Assembly (NCBI GenBank): GCA_016200085.1
Contig: JACQFL010000004.1
Location: 1 to 64,000 of the forward strand
Direction: 5' to 3'
DNA from: Candidatus Rokuibacteriota bacterium
GTDB taxonomy: Bacteria; Methylomirabilota; Methylomirabilia; Rokubacteriales; CSP1-6
Length of the DNA: 64,000 nucleotides
Positions 31,200 to 51,220 of this stretch are shown here, in pieces. The first letter of the stretch is position 1; each line of letters opens with the position of its first letter. A program made the position numbers and the translations under genes. The notes beneath the pieces were generated by a model. The model did no database searches. It saw nothing but the letters and a program-made list of their open reading frames with translations, and was not told the DNA's origin.

Positions 31200-31763
31200 C
31201 TAGCCGGCCCGAGGGTCGCCGTCGCGAGGCTGCCCCACGCTTCCCGGGTTGATCAGCGTGCGGCCGTCGACGCGTCGGATCATCGGGAAGTGCGTGTGAC
31301 CGAGCACGATGACGTCCTCGTCGATGCCGTCGATCTCGGCTCGGAGGTGGTCCTCGGGCGCGTCCGGCGTCAACGTGTAGCGATAGAGATGCTCGTGCGG
31401 CGAGGCGTGCACGCTGAAATACTTCGTCCCGTCGGCCTCGAGGAGGCCGCTCAGCGGCAACGTCCCGAGATACGCGACCTGGGCGACCGACAGCATCGTC
31501 CGATGCGCGGCGCGGGTGGCCTCGGCGAGCGGCTTGCTCGCCGGCGCGCAGCGACAATCCACCCGATGGGCAAGCGCCTCGTCGTGATTGCCCCGCACGC
31601 TCAGCGTGGCATGCTGGCGGACGAAGTCGACGACCTCGCCTGGATGGGGGCCGTACGAGACGAGGTCGCCGCCCACCATCAGTCTGTCGTACGGTTCCGC
31701 AGCGACGATGGCCTCGAGTGCCGGCCAGTTCGCGTGGATGTCGGAGATCACGAGGATACGCAT
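31200..31763 (-). CDS. Metallophosphoesterase (YfcE/MJ0936-like), C-terminally damaged
   Basis: 187 residues of a calcineurin-like phosphodiesterase. Metal-binding motifs are complete: [10 protein letters not shown] near 7, [12 protein letters not shown] near 30, RGNHDEA near 57, and GHTHFP near 155, followed by [16 protein letters not shown]. The active site is therefore intact, but the last strand and helix are cut off by a stop, with the original C-terminal helix still readable after it. Starts 16 bp inside the end of the truncated pafA copy and is the last gene of the first fluoride-riboswitch operon. It may keep some activity. Confidence 0.8.
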
Positions 31764-32155
31764 ACCTCATTCTCCTCTAGCTTGGCGTGACAGCCGTAGG
31801 AGTTCCCCGCCGAGTCCGTGTTGTTCTCGAAGAGCAGGAGGTTGCCGGAGATGCCGTCCTCGCGTAGCCGCTTCTCGGCCCGGTGGAGGAGGTCCTCCAC
31901 GATGCGCTCGCCCGCCTTGTCGTGGACGACCAGCTCCGCCACGCTGTCGCACTCCGGCGTGGCGTACTCCGGATGGAACCCGGTGTCGAGATAGAGGCGC
32001 GCGCCGTTCTCGAGGAAGACGTTGGCGTTCCGGGCCCCGGGGATGACCTTCTCGAAGAGGTAGCGGGCGACGTTGTCGGGCGACAGGCGCCGCTGGCCGT
32101 TCAGCGTGCAGGTCAGACCGTACTCGTTCTCGAGGCCGAAGATCCGTCGCTTCAT
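31748..32155 (-). pseudogene. Truncated second copy of pafA
   Basis: 135 residues. The first ~119 match PafA at 7843-9198 with only about four substitutions, including the ATP-site GLENEYG and catalytic [16 protein letters not shown], and break off at NSYGCH, after which 11 unrelated residues lead to a stop at the phosphoesterase gene. At DNA level the two copies differ at many third positions, so the piece was under protein-level selection or came from a relative before truncation. More than two thirds of the enzyme is missing, so ligase activity is unlikely. Its ATG overlaps the DUF6062 stop (ATGA). Confidence 0.88.
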
Positions 32156-32994
32156 GAGACGTCCTCCCCGACGGGCCGGGATGGCGCACGGCTGTCGCCG
32201 GCAGAGGTTGCGGGCTTCACGGGGGACATGGAGTGCCGAGAGGCGCGCCGCGTCGAGGACGGCGCGTGCACGTCGTTACCGAAGACGCTCTTGGCGCCAG
32301 CGAACATCTCGAAGGCGCGCGTATACGAGGCCGTCTCCTCCGCGGTGTACGGCTCTCGATTGCGGTAGTCGTGCTTGGCGACGAACGAGCCGATGTCGCG
32401 GCCGATGCCCGCCCACTTCGCGCGGGTGCGATCCACGAGCATGCGCGCTTCGTGGCGCTCGGGGTTCCCTTCCAGAGCGGCGAACAGGTGCGGCACGCAA
32501 AGACCGTCGGACCTCGCGTAGCCGGCCTGGAGGTCGCCGTCGTCGATGAACTTGACGATGGTGTCGAGATAGCGCCGCTCCGAGTCGGCGGCGTGGACGC
32601 AGGCCGGACACGCCGCGCGCGCGCGGTAGAGATCCATGACCCCCGGACGCCGGGCGCCACCGAACAAGGCCCTCAACCAGCGGCGACCTCGGCTCTGACC
32701 CGCTCGCGCCGCCAGCCGCTCGGTCCGGCTCAGCGCCAGCCTGACGAGGTCGTCGTAGATGATCGCCGCGCCGAAGCGTGAGCTGCCGATCTCGAGGAGC
32801 AGCCACGTGTGCCAGTTGCAGAAGCCCCACGCCGCCCGAATGACCCGGCGGGTGCCGGGGTCCGTGACCTGCTCGTACAGGAGCGAGTCCAGGTAGCTAC
32901 GGCTCTCGTGCGTGACGCACCGGCAGACGGGGCAGCCCGGCTCCGCGCATGCTTCCACGAGCCGGAAGTACCCGATGAACCTCTCCTCGCTCAT
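32152..32994 (-). CDS. DUF6062-like cysteine-rich protein
   Basis: 280 residues from the ATG after GGAGGG; the track's TTG start lies seven codons upstream. Four short cysteine/histidine motifs recur: GCPVCR near 19, GFCNWH near 61, ACPACV near 130 and LCVPHL near 165, suggesting two metal- or disulfide-linked units. No signal peptide, so probably cytoplasmic. I associate it with DUF6062; function unknown. It is the first gene behind fluoride riboswitch 1 and is translationally coupled to the pafA remnant. The C-terminal 30 residues are Pro/Ser/Ala-rich. Confidence 0.75.
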
Positions 32995-33024: not shown

Positions 33025-33109
33025 AAACGAAAACCCCTACCGGCGCCTTCCGGTAGGGGTCATCAGCCCCGCGTCAGGCGGGGCGGTTGGGGGCGAACCC
33101 CATCGCCAA
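33025..33109 (-). promoter_or_regulatory. Fluoride riboswitch 1 (upstream of the DUF6062 gene)
   Basis: Read on the minus strand: GGCGATGGGGTTCGCC, an AACCGCCCCG...CGGGGC stem, then CTGATGACCCCTACCGG, the conserved layout of the crcB-motif fluoride aptamer. CCCCTACCGG pairs with CCGGTAGGGG and is followed by TTTTCGTTT, an intrinsic terminator that overlaps the aptamer 3' strand. Fluoride binding should prevent terminator formation and switch the downstream operon on. Confidence 0.88.
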
Positions 33110-33123
33110 CTCGCTACACCCTC

Positions 33124-33151
33124 ATTATCGCCCGGCGCTCTCCCTGGTCAA
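33124..33151 (-). promoter_or_regulatory. Promoter of riboswitch 1 operon
   Basis: TTGACC, 16-bp spacer, GATAAT on the minus strand, ending about 15 bp upstream of the aptamer. The same arrangement (TTGACT-16-GATAAT) precedes riboswitch 2. Confidence 0.65.
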
Positions 33152-33170
33152 GAATCGTTGGGCGGAGGCG

Positions 33171-33303
33171 TCATCCGCGGAGCAGCACCACGCCGCGACC
33201 GACGGCAATCCCGAGGAAGCACAGAGGCTCAGGCAGATCGTCGTCGTCACCAAGATGTTGATCAGGGCCTGGTGCCAGGCGCCGCCGGATCGGTGTCCTC
33301 CCT
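33171..33303 (-). pseudogene. Probable C-terminal remnant of crcB (fluoride channel)
   Basis: After the antiporter stop the minus strand reads GAWHQALINILVTTTICLSL in one frame and CFLGIAVGRGVVLLRG then a stop in a second frame. Joined across a one-base shift, this resembles the last helix of CrcB/Fluc channels (gAW..AL.NvL...cL...LG...GR). The N-terminal helices and the conserved Asn/Phe fluoride-path residues are absent. It would have been the second gene behind riboswitch 2. Assignment rests on pattern and on the riboswitch context. Confidence 0.5.
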
Positions 33304-33336
33304 TGCGAAGACGGCCAGCCTGCGGCGCCGGCGAGC

Positions 33337-34560
33337 CTAGCCAGGCTGTCGCGCGCTACGCGCGGGCGCCGCGGGCTCGACCCGGCTCTCCTCCTCGGCG
33401 CTGACATCTGCCGCGGGGCGGAGATGCACCGGCATGAAGAAGGCGTTCGCAATGATCGTCGGGACCACGGCGCTGGCGATGACGGTGGCCACGAGGTGCG
33501 AGTACTGCTCCGGCGTGATGACGCCGTGGCTCAGACCGAAGAGGGCAGAGATGGTGCCGAACGTGAGGCCCGTCGACATCATCAGCGTGTAGTAGGTCGC
33601 CTCCTGCCGCGCGTACCGGAAGGTCTTCACCGCGGGGAAGACGCCGATCAGCTTCGTGACCGACTTGGCGAAGAACAGCACGATGAAGACGAGGGGGGCG
33701 GCGACCAGGGCGGGCACCGACACGAACGACCCGGCACGAATGAAGTAGAACGGCGTCAGGAGCCCGAACGTCAAGGTGCGGAGGCGGCGGATGAGCATGT
33801 GGTCATTGCCGACCGTACCCGCCAGCACCATGCCGATCACGTAGGCCGGGAGCACTGGCTCGCTGTCGGCCCACAGCGCGAGGCCGCCGAGCCCGAACAG
33901 AGCGAGCAGGATGAACTTCGCCTCCAGCTCGGACACCCGTCCGCCATATTTCCTGAAGAAGCGCGGGGTGAGGAACGGCAGGACCACGAACGCCACCATG
34001 CTGACGACGACGAAGACCAGCGTCCGCAGGGTGAACGGCGCGAAGATCAGCCCGAGGGCGATGACCGTCCCCAGGTCGTTCACGAAGCAGGCGGCGAGGA
34101 TCGCCTTGCCATACTCCGTGGTGTTGAATCCGAGCTCGAGCATGACGGCATAGACGACCGCCACCGACGTGGTCGACAGGGCCACGCCCGCGAGCCAGCT
34201 GGAAGCGGGTGTCCAGCCCAGGATGTAGTGCGCGATGGCGGCGGCGCCCAGGAACGGCGCGAAGAAGCCGGCGAGGCCTACGACTAGGGCTTCTTTCCAC
34301 TTGGTCCGGAAGATCGCGGGATCGAGCTCGGCCCCGGCCAGGAACGTCAGCACGATCGCGCCAGTGCCGGCCAGGAACGTCACCCAGCCCGACGACGAGC
34401 CGAGCGCGTTGCGGCCCACGAGTGCGCCGATGATGAGCTGGGCGATCGTGCCGACGATGATTTCTGACAGTGCCGTCGAGACCTTGAACCAGATGGCGAG
34501 CAACGTGGCGATGAGCGCCAGCCCAACCCACACGGCGGCGAGAAACCACACGTTCTCCAT
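33337..34560 (-). CDS. Cation:proton antiporter (CPA2/NhaS3-like)
   Basis: Inner-membrane antiporter, 407 residues with about twelve hydrophobic segments. LAGAELDPAIF and AIARACFVNDLG-like segment AILAACFVNDLGTVIALG (the ND pair is the presumed ion site) match the Na+/H+ exchanger fold. No C-terminal TrkA domain; the end is a short acidic tail. It lies 40 bp downstream of fluoride riboswitch 2. Na+/H+ antiporters are known members of fluoride regulons in other bacteria, where they are thought to counter the acid load or ion imbalance of HF entry. Confidence 0.9.
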   Translation of the reverse strand: MENVWFLAAVWVGLALIATLLAIWFKVSTALSEIIVGTIAQLIIGALVGRNALGSSSGWVTFLAGTGAIVLTFLAGAELDPAIFRTKWKEALVVGLAGFFAPFLGAAAIAHYILGWTPASSWLAGVALSTTSVAVVYAVMLELGFNTTEYGKAILAACFVNDLGTVIALGLIFAPFTLRTLVFVVVSMVAFVVLPFLTPRFFRKYGGRVSELEAKFILLALFGLGGLALWADSEPVLPAYVIGMVLAGTVGNDHMLIRRLRTLTFGLLTPFYFIRAGSFVSVPALVAAPLVFIVLFFAKSVTKLIGVFPAVKTFRYARQEATYYTLMMSTGLTFGTISALFGLSHGVITPEQYSHLVATVIASAVVPTIIANAFFMPVHLRPAADVSAEEESRVEPAAPARSARQPG

Positions 34561-34597
34561 TCACACCTCCATCTCGACCGGCCGCAGAATCGCTCAC

Positions 34598-34680
34598 ACA
34601 AAAAAGACCCCTACCGGTGTGTCCCGGTAGGGGTCATCAGCCCGACGCGAGCCGGGCGGTTCAGGCGAACCCCATCACCT
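34598..34680 (-). promoter_or_regulatory. Fluoride riboswitch 2 (upstream of the antiporter)
   Basis: Minus strand: GGTGATGGGGTTCGCC, AACCGCCCGGC...GTCGGGC, CTGATGACCCCTACCGG. The terminator GACCCCTACCGG/CCGGTAGGGGTC with a 6-nt loop is followed by a run of Us (CTTTTTTG). Nearly identical in plan to riboswitch 1; transcription-termination control. Confidence 0.9.
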
Positions 34681-34700
34681 CTGCGTGGTCACGTGGGTCG

Positions 34701-34728
34701 ATTATCGTACACTGCTGGCCCGAGTCAA
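34701..34728 (-). promoter_or_regulatory. Promoter of riboswitch 2 operon
   Basis: TTGACT, 16-bp spacer, GATAAT on the minus strand, about 20 bp before the aptamer. It faces away from the NYN-domain gene that begins 47 bp to the right, so the two genes share this control region. Confidence 0.65.
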
Positions 34729-34774
34729 ACGCAATTTCACCGTCCTCACGGCAATCCGTGCGAGGGTATCGGGC

Positions 34775-35167
34775 GTGAGCCGATGGGCGGTCTTCTTCGA
34801 TGTCGAGAACACCAGCCGCGCCCAGCACGTCGACGAGGTGATGCGTGAGCTGGGGATCGCGGACGGCAATCGGCCGACGGAGTTCGTGGCCCTGGGTAAC
34901 TGGAGGGTCATCGGGGACGATACCGCGCGCCTGCTCGCCAGGCACGGCGCCCGGCTGGTGCACAGCGCGCCCGTCCCCGGCGTGAAGGACTGGAGCGACC
35001 TGCGGATCGCGGCGGCCGCCGGGCTCTGGCTGGGCCACGCCCGCCCCGGTGACCGCCTCGACCTCGTTTCAGACGACCGCGCCTTCGATGCGGTGGGGGA
35101 CGTGGCCGCATCGCTCGGTGTGTCTTTTCGCCGGCTATCCTACCGCCTGCGATCGACGGCTCGATGA
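34775..35167 (+). CDS. NYN/PIN-like domain protein
   Basis: 130 residues from the GTG that opens VSRWAVFFDVENTS; the track start is 30 codons earlier and overlaps the riboswitch 2 promoter. FFDVEN near 6, KDWSDLRIAAAAGLWL near 74 and LVSDDRAFDAVGDVAASLG near 97 give the conserved acidic residues of NYN-type ribonucleases (LabA/DUF88 group), which would coordinate a metal for RNA cleavage. Small single-domain form. Its 3' end overlaps the convergent MFS gene by 28 bp. Function inferred from the fold. Confidence 0.75.
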   Translation: MSRWAVFFDVENTSRAQHVDEVMRELGIADGNRPTEFVALGNWRVIGDDTARLLARHGARLVHSAPVPGVKDWSDLRIAAAAGLWLGHARPGDRLDLVSDDRAFDAVGDVAASLGVSFRRLSYRLRSTAR

Positions 35168-36378
35168 GCCCGCGGCGCGTCTGGCCGCTGGCCGGTCGTC
35201 ACGCGGGGCGCGCTCCGCATCCGATAGAAGATCGGGACGGCGACGATCTGGCAGATCACGGAGAAGGCGATCAACGCGGGCAGGGAGACGTCGTAGAGCG
35301 CGCCCATGAAAGCGCTGCCCGCGAACCAGACCACGCCGTAGATCGAGTTGAAGACCCCGAAGGCCGTCCCCCGCCGCTCGCGGACGATCATCCCCGCAAT
35401 GGCGGCACGGACGATCGACTCCTGCGCCCCCATCCCCACCCCCCACAGCACCGTGCCGATCACGACGAGCGCCGGGCTCGTCGAGAAGACGAACGGAGCG
35501 AAGAGGCAGGACAGCAGCGGCACGAGCGTCAGCACCCGAAAACCTGCCGCATCGAAGAACCGTCCGAGCACGAGTGCGGCGACGGCGTCCGTTCCCATGG
35601 CCAGCGCATAGAGGAGCGGGATCGACGTGTCGGAGGCGACCGCAACCTTCTTGAGGTGAAACGCGATCAGCGGAAAATCGGCGTACCCGGCGGCCAGGAA
35701 TGCCACCGCGACGAGATAGATCCAGAACACCCTGGGAAAACGCTCATCCGGGGCGCGTTCGCCCTGGGCCTCGAGCGCCTGGGGTTCGGGATAGCGAAGC
35801 CGCGCGGCGACGAGGCAGCCGAGCGCGAGGACCGCGGGAATGAGCAGGATGGCGAACGCGGTGTGGTACCCGGCTCGAAGGGCGAGCACGACGGCCACCA
35901 GCACCGGGCCAAGTACCGCGCCGATCTGATCCATCGCCTCGTGCAGTCCGAAGGCCCAGCCGCGCCCCATCCGCGAAGCAGCGTGCGACAGCAGGGCGTC
36001 GCGCGGCGGCGTGCGGATGGCCTTACCGACCCGCTCGGCGATCATGAGCGCTGCCGCCACGTCCCAGCGGCCCGCGAGTGCCAGCAGCGGGACCGCGAGC
36101 ATGTTGACGGCATAGCCGATGAGGATGACACCCCAGTAGCGGCCAGTGCGGTCGGCGAGATATCCCGAGGCGAGACGAAGGCCATACCCGACCAGCTCCC
36201 CGAAGCCGGCCACGATGCCGACGACGGCGCCGCTGGCGCCCAGCACGGCGAGAAACGGTCCGGTGATGGCGCGCGCCCCCTCGTACGTCATGTCCGCGAA
36301 GAGGCTGACGACCCCGATGAGGACGACGAAACCCACCGCCTGCCGGTGTGCCGCGATCGCCTCGATGTCCCGCGCCAT
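35140..36378 (-). CDS. MFS transporter under fluoride riboswitch control
   Basis: 412 residues, starting at MARDIEAIAAHRQAVGF; the 34 codons upstream in the track are riboswitch RNA. Twelve helices; loop 2-3 reads GYLADRTGRYWG. The first half GVVSLFADMTYEGARAITGPFLAVLGASGAVVG identifies the DHA1-like group often annotated as MFS of unknown drug or sugar specificity. Its ribosome-binding site GGAGGG lies inside the riboswitch hairpin. Fluoride control suggests export of a fluorinated or fluoride-linked compound, but that is inference. Confidence 0.9.
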   Translation of the reverse strand: MARDIEAIAAHRQAVGFVVLIGVVSLFADMTYEGARAITGPFLAVLGASGAVVGIVAGFGELVGYGLRLASGYLADRTGRYWGVILIGYAVNMLAVPLLALAGRWDVAAALMIAERVGKAIRTPPRDALLSHAASRMGRGWAFGLHEAMDQIGAVLGPVLVAVVLALRAGYHTAFAILLIPAVLALGCLVAARLRYPEPQALEAQGERAPDERFPRVFWIYLVAVAFLAAGYADFPLIAFHLKKVAVASDTSIPLLYALAMGTDAVAALVLGRFFDAAGFRVLTLVPLLSCLFAPFVFSTSPALVVIGTVLWGVGMGAQESIVRAAIAGMIVRERRGTAFGVFNSIYGVVWFAGSAFMGALYDVSLPALIAFSVICQIVAVPIFYRMRSAPRVTTGQRPDAPRAHRAVDRRR

Positions 36379-36384
36379 TCGTCC

Positions 36385-36465
36385 CTCCGACCGGCGGCCT
36401 GGCATATCGCCGGCAGGAGTCATCAGCCTCGAGCGGAGGCGGTCGCGGGCGGACTCCATCGCCCC
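36385..36465 (-). promoter_or_regulatory. Fluoride riboswitch 3 (upstream of the MFS gene), translational type
   Basis: Minus strand: GGCGATGGAGTCCGCC, CGACCGCCTC...GAGGC, CTGATGACTCCTGCCGG. Unlike the other three there is no U tract. CTCCTGCCGGCG pairs with CGCCGGTCGGAG, and the GGAG of that second arm is the Shine-Dalgarno sequence 6 bp before the MFS start. Fluoride should stabilise the aptamer and free the ribosome-binding site. Confidence 0.85.
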
Positions 36466-36480
36466 GGGAACGACGTGCAT

Positions 36481-36510
36481 ACTCTACGTGCTGTCGCTGA
36501 ATCCCGTCAA
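36481..36510 (-). promoter_or_regulatory. Promoter of riboswitch 3
   Basis: TTGACG, 18-bp spacer, TAGAGT on the minus strand, 16 bp before the aptamer. Back to back with the start of the DUF47 gene. Confidence 0.55.
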
Positions 36511-36538
36511 CGGCGCTACACTCGGAGCCGACGGAGTC

Positions 36539-37177
36539 ATGCGGCGGCTGCTCCCGCGCGAGGTGCGGTTCTTCGACGACTTCGAGGCGCAATCCCAGTG
36601 CCTCGTCCACGCCGCAGGTCTTCTCCGCACCCTCGTCCACGAATTCACGGACGTGCTGGCCTCGGTGACGGCGATCAAGGACGTCGAGCATCGAGGGGAC
36701 GGCATCACGCACGACATCATCGCGCGCCTGCACACGACCTTCGTGACGCCGATCGACCGTGACGACATCCACGTCCTCGCGGTCCGACTCGACGACGTCC
36801 TGGACTATATCGAAGCCGCCGCCTCGGCGCTGCACGTCTATCGCGTGAAGCAGCCAACCCCGGAATGTCGCGCCCTGGCCGACGTGGTGGTGGACGCCGC
36901 GAATGCGGTGGACGGGGCCGTGCGGTCACTCCGCGGCCTCGACGCCGCAGCCTTCTACCGGTGCGCCGACGAGGTGCGCCGGCACGAGCACCGCGCCGAT
37001 GGGTTGCTGCGGCAGAGCATCGCGTCGCTTTTCGATCTCCGAGGCAACGCGATCGACATCCTGAAGTGGAAGGAGATCTACGAGACGCTCGAGGGTGTGA
37101 CGGATCGCTGCGACGATGTCAGCAACGCCATCGAAGCCATCATGCTGAAGATGGCGCCCACGGGCCGCGCTCGATGA
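36539..37177 (+). CDS. DUF47 (PhoU-like) protein
   Basis: 212 residues, all helical, start at MRRLLPREVRFFDDFEAQ. The pattern EFTDVLASVTAIKDVEHRGDGITHDIIARLHTTFVTPIDRDDIHVLAVRLDDVLDYIE is the DUF47 core, with acidic/histidine metal-binding clusters like PhoU. DUF47 genes usually accompany low-affinity Pit phosphate carriers; no pit gene is here. It lies between two fluoride riboswitches (divergent from riboswitch 3, upstream of riboswitch 4), so an additional role in anion stress is possible but unproven. Confidence 0.9.
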   Translation: MRRLLPREVRFFDDFEAQSQCLVHAAGLLRTLVHEFTDVLASVTAIKDVEHRGDGITHDIIARLHTTFVTPIDRDDIHVLAVRLDDVLDYIEAAASALHVYRVKQPTPECRALADVVVDAANAVDGAVRSLRGLDAAAFYRCADEVRRHEHRADGLLRQSIASLFDLRGNAIDILKWKEIYETLEGVTDRCDDVSNAIEAIMLKMAPTGRAR

Positions 37178-37258
37178 ATCGCCGCACCGTCGCTGCTCAG
37201 CCTCTTCCTCGGGCGCCAGCGGCCCCATCGTCACCGCCTGGCTCGAGGCCTCCACCGC

Positions 37259-37286
37259 TTGACCGTGAACGACGATCGGTGATGAT
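37259..37286 (+). promoter_or_regulatory. Promoter of riboswitch 4
   Basis: TTGACC, 16-bp spacer, GATGAT, about 10 bp before the aptamer on the plus strand. The -10 element is weaker than those of riboswitches 1 and 2. Confidence 0.5.
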
Positions 37287-37295
37287 CGTGACGCC

Positions 37296-37382
37296 AAGGC
37301 GATGAGGTTCGCCCCAACCGCCCCACCCGGGGTGGGGCTGATGACCTCTACCGGTCGCGACGGACTGGTGGAGGTTTTTTTG
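37296..37382 (+). promoter_or_regulatory. Fluoride riboswitch 4 (upstream of uspA-like gene)
   Basis: Plus strand: GGCGATGAGGTTCGCC, CAACCGCCCCACCCGGGGTGGGG, CTGATGACCTCTACCGG. The terminator arm CCTCTACCGG pairs, with G-U pairs, to CTGGTGGAGG and runs into seven Us. Transcription-termination type, the same mechanism as riboswitches 1 and 2. Confidence 0.88.
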
Positions 37383-37399: not shown

Positions 37400-37822
37400 A
37401 TGTTCAGGCGCATTCTCGTAGCCTATGACGGGTCCGAAGGCTCACGCGTCGCGCTGACACGCGCCATCGAGCTGGCGCAGGGGCTCGATGCCGAGCTGGT
37501 CAGCATCTCCGTGGAAGAGCATCTGCCCTACTACGCCGCCTCCATCAGCGAGGTCAAGGCCACCAAGGAAGAGATCGACGAGCATTTCCGGGCGCTGACC
37601 AAACAGGCGCGTGACCTCGCGGGTCTGAGCGACGTCAGCATGGAGACGCTCGTGCAGCAGGGACACGAGGTGGAGCGCATCGTCGGTGCGGCGAAGGAGG
37701 GGCGTTTCGACCTTCTCGTCATCGGCTATCACGGCCACAGCGCCATCTTCGAGCGCGCGATGGGCAGCACGGCACAGAGCATCGTCCGTCACGCGCCGTG
37801 TCCGGTGCTGGTCGCGAAATGA
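37400..37822 (+). CDS. Universal stress protein UspA family
   Basis: 140 residues, a single Usp domain. FRRILVAYDGSEGSRVALTRAIELA opens the fold and the C-terminal GYHGHSAIFERAMGSTAQSIVRHAPCPVLVAK contains the ATP-binding G-x2-G-x9-G(S/T) pattern. ATG preceded by GGAGGC. Directly behind fluoride riboswitch 4; Usp genes are a recorded class of fluoride-regulon member in other bacteria. Its TGA overlaps the ATG of a DUF190 fragment by 4 bases. Confidence 0.93.
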   Translation: MFRRILVAYDGSEGSRVALTRAIELAQGLDAELVSISVEEHLPYYAASISEVKATKEEIDEHFRALTKQARDLAGLSDVSMETLVQQGHEVERIVGAAKEGRFDLLVIGYHGHSAIFERAMGSTAQSIVRHAPCPVLVAK

Positions 37823-49497: not shown

Positions 49498-50867
49498 AGT
49501 CCTGCGCATTGTACCAGCCGGAGCTCGAGCACGCGCCGCGTGGCCGGCGTCACCGGGGCCGCCGCCGCGCGGCGCAGGCCGGCGAGCCAGAGGATCACGC
49601 CGTCCGCGGCCACGAGGGGCACGCGCCCGCGCTCCCAGCGCGGCACCCGCGCGCCGATGAGGCACGCCTTCACGCGCCGCTCGCCGCCGCCGAACGCGGT
49701 GAAGCGATCGCCGGCGCGGCGCGCGCGTACCTCGAGTCGCGGCGGCAGGCCGTCCGCGTCGAAGGCGGCGATCGCGGGCTGTCGAGGCACGACGTAGCCG
49801 GCGGCGGGCTGCACGCGCGCCTCGAGCGCGGCGCCGATCTCCTCGAGGGCGAGCGTGCCGGGGACCTCGAAGACCCGCGGCGCAAGCGCCGGGGCCGGCC
49901 GGCTGGCCAGCCGCAGCCATGCGCCGCTCGCCTCCAGGGTGAGGCCCCCGAAGCGGAACGGCCGCGGCGGCGCCGGCGCCAGCACGCGGTCGAGCCCGCG
50001 GTGCACCCACGCGCGGAACGGCGCGCGGCTGCCGAGGGACGCCGCGGCCTGGCGCAACACTTCCCCCGCCACCGGCCGGGGGAGCGCCCGCAGCTCCCTG
50101 AGCGGCAGCACGATCGCCCCGTCATCCGCGATCCCCTCGCCCCGCGCCATCCAGCGCTCGAGGGTGAGACGGCCGACCGACGCCACGGCCTCGACCGTCT
50201 CGCGCAGCCGCCGCGCGGCGGCCGCCAGCGCGGACACGACGTCGCCGTCGAACGCGGCCGCCAGCAGGGGTAGCACCTCGTGGCGCACGCGGTTGCGCGC
50301 GAACTTGAGGTCGCGGTTCGACGGGTCCTCGCGCCAGCCCTCGCCCGCCGCCGCCAGCATCGCGACGAGGTCGCGTCGCCGGCACGCGATCAGCGGGCGG
50401 ACGATGCGCCCGCGCACGGGCGGGATGCCGGCCAGGCCGCGCGGCCCCGCGCCCTCGAGCAGGCGCAGGAGCAGGGTCTCCGCCTGGTCGTCCGCGGTGT
50501 GGCCGACGGCGATGCGCGTGGCGCCGGCGCGCGCGGCGGCGGCGGCGAGCGCGGCGTAGCGGGCCCGGCGCGCGGCGTCCTCGAGCGAGCCGCGCCGCGC
50601 GACGTCGACCGCCACGACCTCCACCGGGACGCCCAGCCGCGCCCCGAGCGCGCGCACGAACGCCGCATCATCACCAGAATCCTCGCGCAACCGATGATCG
50701 ACGTGCGCCACGCTCAAGGTGAGGTCGAGCTCGGACGCCAGCGCGTGCAAGACGTGCAGCAGCGCGACGGAGTCCGCGCCCCCGGACACTGCCACGACCA
50801 CGCGATCCCCGCGCGCAAGCATCGCGTGGTGGCCGATCGTGGCACGGACGGTCTCCAGGACGAGCAT
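49494..50867 (-). CDS. tilS: tRNA(Ile)-lysidine synthase
   Basis: Modifies the AUA-reading tRNA-Ile anticodon with lysine. 457 residues starting MLVLETVRATIGHHAML; the track start lies in the tandem repeat upstream and is not credible. ATP pyrophosphatase loop VVAVSGGADSVALLH, HVDHRLR, GHTADDQAETLLLRLLEGAG, and a C-terminal TilS substrate-binding domain. Essential gene. Co-transcribed with degP. Confidence 0.94.
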   Translation of the reverse strand: MLVLETVRATIGHHAMLARGDRVVVAVSGGADSVALLHVLHALASELDLTLSVAHVDHRLREDSGDDAAFVRALGARLGVPVEVVAVDVARRGSLEDAARRARYAALAAAAARAGATRIAVGHTADDQAETLLLRLLEGAGPRGLAGIPPVRGRIVRPLIACRRRDLVAMLAAAGEGWREDPSNRDLKFARNRVRHEVLPLLAAAFDGDVVSALAAAARRLRETVEAVASVGRLTLERWMARGEGIADDGAIVLPLRELRALPRPVAGEVLRQAAASLGSRAPFRAWVHRGLDRVLAPAPPRPFRFGGLTLEASGAWLRLASRPAPALAPRVFEVPGTLALEEIGAALEARVQPAAGYVVPRQPAIAAFDADGLPPRLEVRARRAGDRFTAFGGGERRVKACLIGARVPRWERGRVPLVAADGVILWLAGLRRAAAAPVTPATRRVLELRLVQCAGL

Positions 50868-50870
50868 GCT

Positions 50871-51154
50871 CAGTCGGCTCCGATCATGGACGCACCGCGT
50901 TCCCGGGACGGGGGGCGGCGGGGGCAGGGCTTCCGGGAGCCGTTGGGTACGCGACGAAAGCGCCTCGCCCATGAGGCGCGAAAGCGCCACGCCAGACGAC
51001 GGTAGGCACAGTCAGTCGGACCCGATCATGGACGCACCGCGTTCCCGGGACGGGGGCGGCGGGGGCAGGGCTTCCGGGAGCCGTTGGGTACGCGAAGAAA
51101 GCGCCTCGCCCATGAGGCGCGAAAGCGCCACGCCAGACGCTCCTAGGCACAGTC
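50871..51154. repeat. Tandem duplication of a 142-bp unit with an inverted tail
   Basis: Two nearly identical 142-bp copies (50871-51012 and 51013-51154; GATCATGGACGCACCGCGTT recurs at exactly 142 bp). Each copy contains the palindrome GCGCCTCGCCCATGAGGCGC. Immediately after copy 2, CTCCCGGAAGCCCTGCCCCCGCCGCCC (about 51160-51188) is the reverse complement of part of the unit. The whole 350-bp gap between tilS and the MoaD-MoaE gene is made of this material; no gene is seen. Confidence 0.85.
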
Positions 51155-51220
51155 AGTCGGCTCCCGGAAGCCCTGCCCCCGCCGCCCCCCCGCCCGACGA
51201 GCGCAAAGGCGAGCAAAGAG

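Follow-up and report, generated by a model that had tools for sequence, protein, structure and literature searches.

Fluoride riboswitches of the crcB-motif family (Rfam RF01734) have been described as pseudoknotted aptamers with an overlapping terminator (PMC2864571). Among the gene classes controlled by these switches, Na+/H+ antiporters rank second in frequency and have been assigned to pH homeostasis (2024 review, PMC11139923), and cassettes in which a fluoride-switch antiporter is followed by a gene for a universal stress protein (Usp) occur, for example, on Enterobacter and Methylocystis plasmids. In the fluoride island GI3 of Enterobacter cloacae FRM, a genomic island, a single switch governs a six-gene operon that includes crcB, eno, ppaC and gpmA, and Usp is under fluoride-switch control (PMC5533749). 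Here we analyze a 64,000-nucleotide stretch of Candidatus Rokuibacteriota DNA (contig JACQFL010000004.1, positions 1 to 64,000; hereafter, the window), in which four crcB-type aptamers within 4.31 kb precede four units encoding a DUF6062 protein, a cation:proton antiporter, an MFS transporter and a Usp. With a probability of roughly 0.85, this locus is a compact fluoride-response island of four independently switched units, of which the DUF6062-antiporter-Usp part comes from a single-switch operon.

Aptamers, promoters and expression platforms

A search with cmscan and RF01734 at gathering thresholds (cut-off 34 bits) returned exactly four matches in the window (42-56 bits; E-values from 1e-12 to 3e-8), three on the minus strand and one on the plus strand. 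The aptamer of the DUF6062 unit is located at 33047..33116 (-; 55.7 bits), that of the antiporter unit at 34621..34688 (-; 52.2 bits), that of the MFS unit at 36407..36472 (-; 42.1 bits), and that of the Usp unit at 37289..37357 (+; 49.4 bits). All four crcB-motif aptamers of the original prediction were thus recovered above the cut-off, with coordinates agreeing within 10-25 nt; the offset arises from the terminators, which had been counted in. No further RF01734 match was found in the rest of the genome (3.57 Mb), a draft in 57 contigs that is 94.6% complete and 0.33% contaminated. By our own arithmetic, the chance that four elements placed uniformly along 3.57 Mb would all land within 4.31 kb is ~7e-9. 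A fifth, weak match at 50258-50324 (-), which scored 17.2 bits with a home-made model, was rejected as chance: it is located within a tilS-like coding frame, Rfam does not report it, and the consensus positions are missing.

The conserved pseudoknot, a feature on which the original prediction had staked the assignment, was assessed by aligning 27 aptamers of the window and its relatives. The 5-bp pseudoknot (columns 16-20/63-67) is complementary in all 27 sequences, and pairing over the whole structure reaches 98.9%, compared with 42-62% when the partner strands were slid as a control. Three different pseudoknot sequences are present among the four aptamers of the window, each of them complementary: GGGG/CCCC (twice, including the DUF6062 unit), GGAG/CUCC in the MFS unit, and GAGG/CCUC in the Usp unit, where a compensatory A-U pair takes the place of its counterpart in GGGG/CCCC or GGAG/CUCC. 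Such variation with retained complementarity is the pattern predicted by selection on function. From these computational results, we infer that the four leaders bind fluoride.

Each aptamer is preceded by a sigma70-like promoter that ends 2-12 nt upstream, as identified by a consensus scan, in agreement with the original prediction of a separate promoter for every aptamer. The predicted promoters are TTGACC-16-GATAAT for the DUF6062 unit (33124..33151, -; 10 of 12 consensus matches), TTGACT-16-GATAAT for the antiporter unit (34701..34728, -), TTGACG-18-TAGAGT for the MFS unit (36481..36510, -) and TTGACC-16-GATGAT for the Usp unit (37259..37286, +). The scan covered 8 kb and yielded six matches, four of these directly before the aptamers, with 0.4 expected.

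The leaders of the DUF6062, antiporter and Usp units contain intrinsic terminators of 12-14 bp that are built from the 3' strand of the aptamer. These overlap the aptamer 3' strand at 33032..33061 (-; 12 bp) in the DUF6062 leader, at 34606..34635 (-), with a T6 tail, in the antiporter leader, and at 37343..37376 (+), with a T7 tail, in the Usp leader. The same terminator scan found none in the MFS leader. There, the aptamer 3' strand forms an anti-Shine-Dalgarno hairpin (36385..36419, -), in which the strand CUCCUGCCGGC pairs with GCCGGUCGGAG, the latter holding the Shine-Dalgarno (SD) sequence GGAGGG 4 bases before the ATG. Folding calculations gave -20.1 kcal/mol for this hairpin and an SD pairing probability of 0.99; when the aptamer segment was kept unpaired, mimicking the bound state, the SD core GAGG was free. 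Because the SD sequence is sequestered in a hairpin that stands in place of a terminator, the MFS switch probably acts on translation. A U-run is likewise lacking in the MFS switch of Bradyrhizobium tropiciagri. The 3' strand of that switch is able to pair with a GGGAG located immediately upstream of an ATG, where a short open frame begins that continues into the MFS start.

In all four leaders, the platform (three terminators, one SD hairpin) is mutually exclusive with the aptamer and lies upstream of the gene. Three of the leaders match the RF01734 family in the model, the pseudoknot and the overlapping terminator, and the fourth matches it in the model and the pseudoknot. The window differs from the usual representatives of the family in having four copies in 4.3 kb for four units, one of which apparently acts on the ribosome-binding site. 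In the mechanism we propose, a crcB-type aptamer would open each leader, a few bases past the sigma70-type promoter of that unit. Without fluoride, the downstream hairpin would capture the aptamer 3' strand and serve as a terminator for DUF6062, antiporter and Usp, and as an anti-Shine-Dalgarno element for MFS; with Mg2+-fluoride bound, the pseudoknot would keep the 3' strand, resulting in read-through of the three units or a freed ribosome site in the MFS unit.

Switched genes and their counterparts in other genomes

The four different transcription units named in the original prediction are supported by Pfam matches directly behind the switches. The DUF6062 protein (280 aa; 32152..32994, -) matches PF19538 with 58.7 bits against a cut-off of 27; the CPA2-type antiporter (407 aa; 33337..34560, -) matches Na_H_Exchanger, PF00999, with 115.7 bits; the MFS transporter (412 aa; 35140..36378, -; start codon at 36378) matches MFS_1, PF07690, with 100.1 bits, scored on the longer open reading frame (ORF); and the Usp (140 aa; 37400..37822, +) matches PF00582 with 109 bits against a cut-off of 24. 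The Usp is 49-75% identical to the Usp encoded in the fluoride operons of relatives.

NapA and KefC were identified as relatives of the antiporter, and the ion-site residue Asp162, of the type found in transmembrane helix 5, is invariant in 17 aligned sequences. Against the NCBIfam CPA2 subfamily TIGR00932 it scores 101.3 bits, short of the 238.3-bit cut-off; the protein is a superfamily relative outside this curated subfamily, as judged by profile scores. Among the 80 antiporter loci of GTDB genomes that are closest to that of the window (Acidobacteria, Nitrospirae, Proteobacteria and others), a fluoride switch was detected on the locus in 68 cases (E<=1e-3, using a model derived from the class to which the window belongs) and a Usp-like match in 59. 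With 68 of the 80 loci carrying a switch, the protein is a member of the Na+/H+ antiporter family already known to be governed by fluoride switches. The original prediction had treated antiporters and Usp as established targets of fluoride switches, consistent with PMC11139923 for the former and PMC5533749 for the latter. Across the class, too, the antiporter tracks the switch (Fisher p=4e-11, a value that ignores relatedness). At two loci, L148 (4559-4620 and 4911-4971) and L142 (2344-2404 and 2717-2777; locus and genome labels are ours throughout), a single antiporter gene is preceded by two tandem fluoride aptamers that share one strand and lie within 350-400 nt, possibly a double switch.

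In the antiporter-Usp cassettes of Caulobacter, Methylocystis MJC1 and enterobacterial plasmids, the antiporter is of the same family as that of the window, with 65-69% identity, and is followed by Usp. In the window, by contrast, antiporter and Usp are encoded on opposite strands and are switched individually. The window further differs from the cassettes in that neither CrcB nor a CLC exporter was found in its genome: searches of the 94.6% complete assembly gave no match to CrcB/Fluc (PF02537) or CLC (PF00654), and the control searches were positive.

The DUF6062 protein contains two modules, C21-x2-C24 ... C59-x2-H62 and C129-x2-C132 ... C166-x2-H169, and all eight of these Cys/His residues are invariant in 15 aligned sequences, which suggests that the protein carries two metal sites. 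DUF6062 tracks the fluoride switch in the class (14 of 17 genomes; p=3e-5, ignoring relatedness), and a DUF6062-like gene is found behind its own fluoride switch in Variovorax. A literature search found no paper naming DUF6062, so that its tight link to fluoride appears to be unreported in the searchable literature. From the conserved residues and the genomic association, we infer a role of the putative metal sites in fluoride stress. A single-sequence AlphaFold model of the protein was uninformative (pLDDT 40) and was discarded, and a search of viral contigs yielded no DUF6062 relatives. The DUF6062-like protein of Variovorax (L167:13228-14538), encoded directly behind its switch, has more modules of this kind, with four CPxC and three CxxH motifs.

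We searched 95 genomes of the class and detected at least one fluoride switch in 35, mostly one only. In four of these (G069, G092, G018 and G006), DUF6062, antiporter and Usp genes follow one another behind a single switch; in G002, a dynamin-like gene comes first, followed by the same three genes under one switch; and in G074, the single-switch operon additionally contains a distantly related MFS gene. Elsewhere, the switch is followed by DUF6062, antiporter and then CrcB (G063), or by a dynamin-like GTPase, antiporter and then CrcB (G040). The MFS gene of the G074 operon was considered as a counterpart of the MFS gene of the window and dropped, the identity being just 27%. A dynamin-like GTPase closely follows the fluoride switch in four loci of class members (L037, L045, L053 and L042), and a homolog of it is encoded near the antiporter in 19 of the 80 loci of the wide sample.

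Variovorax, Dyella, Bradyrhizobium, Sphingobium and a Hyphomicrobiales metagenome-assembled genome (MAG) likewise have islands with one switch per unit. In Variovorax sp. Sphag1AA, nine switches are spread over 24 kb, and antiporter, CLC, CrcB and the DUF6062-like gene are each separately switched; Dyella sp. AtDHG13 has 14 fluoride switches genome-wide, and the Hyphomicrobiales MAG Centralia_MAG_73 has 20. As in the window, several units are individually switched in the Variovorax, Dyella, Centralia_MAG_73 and B. tropiciagri islands, there for antiporter, MFS, DUF6062-like, CLC and CrcB genes; these islands are larger and more spread (9 switches over 24 kb, 8 over 29-32 kb), and those of Variovorax and Dyella include exporters. 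Homologs of the MFS transporter (50-64% identity) are individually fluoride-switched in the B. tropiciagri and Dyella islands or are part of crcB-DUF190-MFS operons in Aquicella and Chroococcidiopsis; judging from these homologs, it is quite possible that the MFS unit was acquired together with its switch. The four switches in 4.31 kb are the densest stretch in the sample, the next best having three, in a collection that was picked for the antiporter, often contains multiple switches and is not a survey. The dedicated island with four targets put forward in the original prediction is upheld, though it is not unique in kind, since multi-switch islands recur elsewhere. Neither the translational platform of the MFS unit nor the lack of known exporters figured in that prediction.

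Origin of the layout and alternative explanations

The single-switch operons of relatives share with the window the three gene families and the promoter-aptamer-terminator plan, but comprise one switch and one transcript, whereas the window has separately switched units with altered gene order and strands. Because DUF6062, antiporter and Usp belong to one single-switch operon in relatives, the window reads as that operon split up: probably, to judge from gene content, the island arose by splitting of a single-switch operon into separately switched units and not by ab initio assembly. These three genes would thus descend from an operon with one switch and now have one switch per gene, and the MFS unit would represent a type that is individually fluoride-switched in other genomes. 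Several points weigh against this history. The aptamers of the window are 64-77% alike mutually and up to 83% alike to the aptamers of relatives; being no closer to one another than to the latter, they lend no support by similarity to duplication of one ancestral switch. The direction of the change is deduced by parsimony from one genome, for which splitting is the simplest history, and that genome, analyzed by computational means throughout, is a draft assembly of 57 contigs with 94.6% completeness. The lack of special similarity among the four aptamers would fit a piecemeal assembly, in which each gene arrived with its own switch from other fluoride islands, as would the resemblance of the MFS unit to its switched counterparts in Bradyrhizobium and Dyella, its translational platform, unlike those of the other three units, and the one-switch-per-unit organization of proteobacterial islands. 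We regard such an assembly as possible but doubtful: the closest fetched relatives of DUF6062, antiporter and Usp belong to single-switch operons within this class, with identities of 73-82% for the antiporter, up to 75% for Usp and up to 50% for DUF6062, so that these three genes look native to the lineage. It is highly improbable that any of the four aptamers has decayed and lost its regulatory function, given that all of them retain the full pseudoknot, compensatory changes included, along with a promoter and an expression platform. Decay does have a precedent in the class, a truncated aptamer in G036 (L166:2847-2907) next to an antiporter gene with an in-frame stop, and the MFS aptamer scores lowest (42.1 bits) and has no terminator.

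The absence of detectable exporters raises the alternative that the antiporter or the MFS carrier itself exports fluoride, replacing CrcB/Fluc and CLC-F. Both CrcB and CLC are missing not only from the genome of the window but also from 27 of the 35 switch-bearing genomes of the class. Within the family that includes the window, two genomes have both switch and CrcB, 23 have the switch only and 17 have CrcB only (Fisher p=5e-4); switch or antiporter and CrcB are largely exclusive in this family (p=5e-4 and 6e-4), as well as within the genera g4, g7, g8 and g23. These p-values are inflated by relatedness, however, and eleven genomes of the family lack switch, CrcB, CLC and antiporter altogether, so that exporter absence is no proof of replacement. 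Outside the class, CrcB is encoded in 21 of 26 antiporter genomes and CLC in 19 of 26; inside it, the operons of G063 and G040 contain CrcB downstream of the antiporter, and the antiporter of the window retains the CPA2 ion-site Asp. We therefore consider fluoride export by either carrier unlikely. The idea of the antiporter as a general replacement of exporters, in particular, was weakened by the wider sample with its 21 CrcB-encoding genomes of 26, and given the coexistence of the antiporter with CrcB or CLC outside the class, we retain pH and cation homeostasis as the preferred reading of its function. An extended version, in which antiporter or MFS, aided by DUF6062, would constitute a third efflux class, with DUF6062 as a dedicated metal-site fluoride-response protein, appears just as improbable.

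Under the preferred reading, the products of the island would mitigate fluoride/HF stress: the CPA2 antiporter would correct the acidification and cation imbalance resulting from HF entry, Usp would act as a general stress protein, the MFS carrier would export some solute, and DUF6062, with its two Cys/His metal-type sites, would protect or sense a metal-dependent target.

Neighboring genes and implications

The end of the DUF6062 gene overlaps by four bases an N-terminal fragment of pafA (Pup ligase; 31748..32155, -), which covers positions 1-142 of 441 of PF03136 and is a probable passenger. Only the N-terminal third of the gene is left, indicative of a truncated remnant or a rearrangement. 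Next comes a YfcE-like calcineurin-type phosphoesterase (PF12850; 31200..31763, -) that is probably co-transcribed with the DUF6062 unit. Between the MFS and Usp units lies a DUF47/PhoU-like gene (36539..37177, +; PF01865, 117.9 bits) that has no fluoride switch of its own and no homolog among the fluoride loci of relatives, and is probably incidental to the island. An ORF with a weak match to the NYN domain (nuclease-like; 34685-35167, +), also without its own switch, begins opposite the antiporter aptamer and is divergent from the antiporter unit. Farther away, at 51055-51186 (+), an inverted repeat of ~29 bp, which produced a spurious mir-629 match, adjoins repeated GC-rich coding-like sequence.

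The fluoride-switch antiporter family and multi-switch fluoride islands are already known. The apparently new features are the multi-switch layout with separately switched units, the mixed transcriptional and translational control, the finding of no known exporter, and the DUF6062 association. If the predicted mechanism is correct, two expression platforms for one ligand would stand side by side in one regulon, a natural test bed for the question of why a cell would bear the cost of four sensors rather than one. In a lineage with fluoride switches that is mostly without a known exporter, fluoride transport by the antiporter becomes directly testable, and DUF6062, an unstudied family, gains a concrete physiological context.

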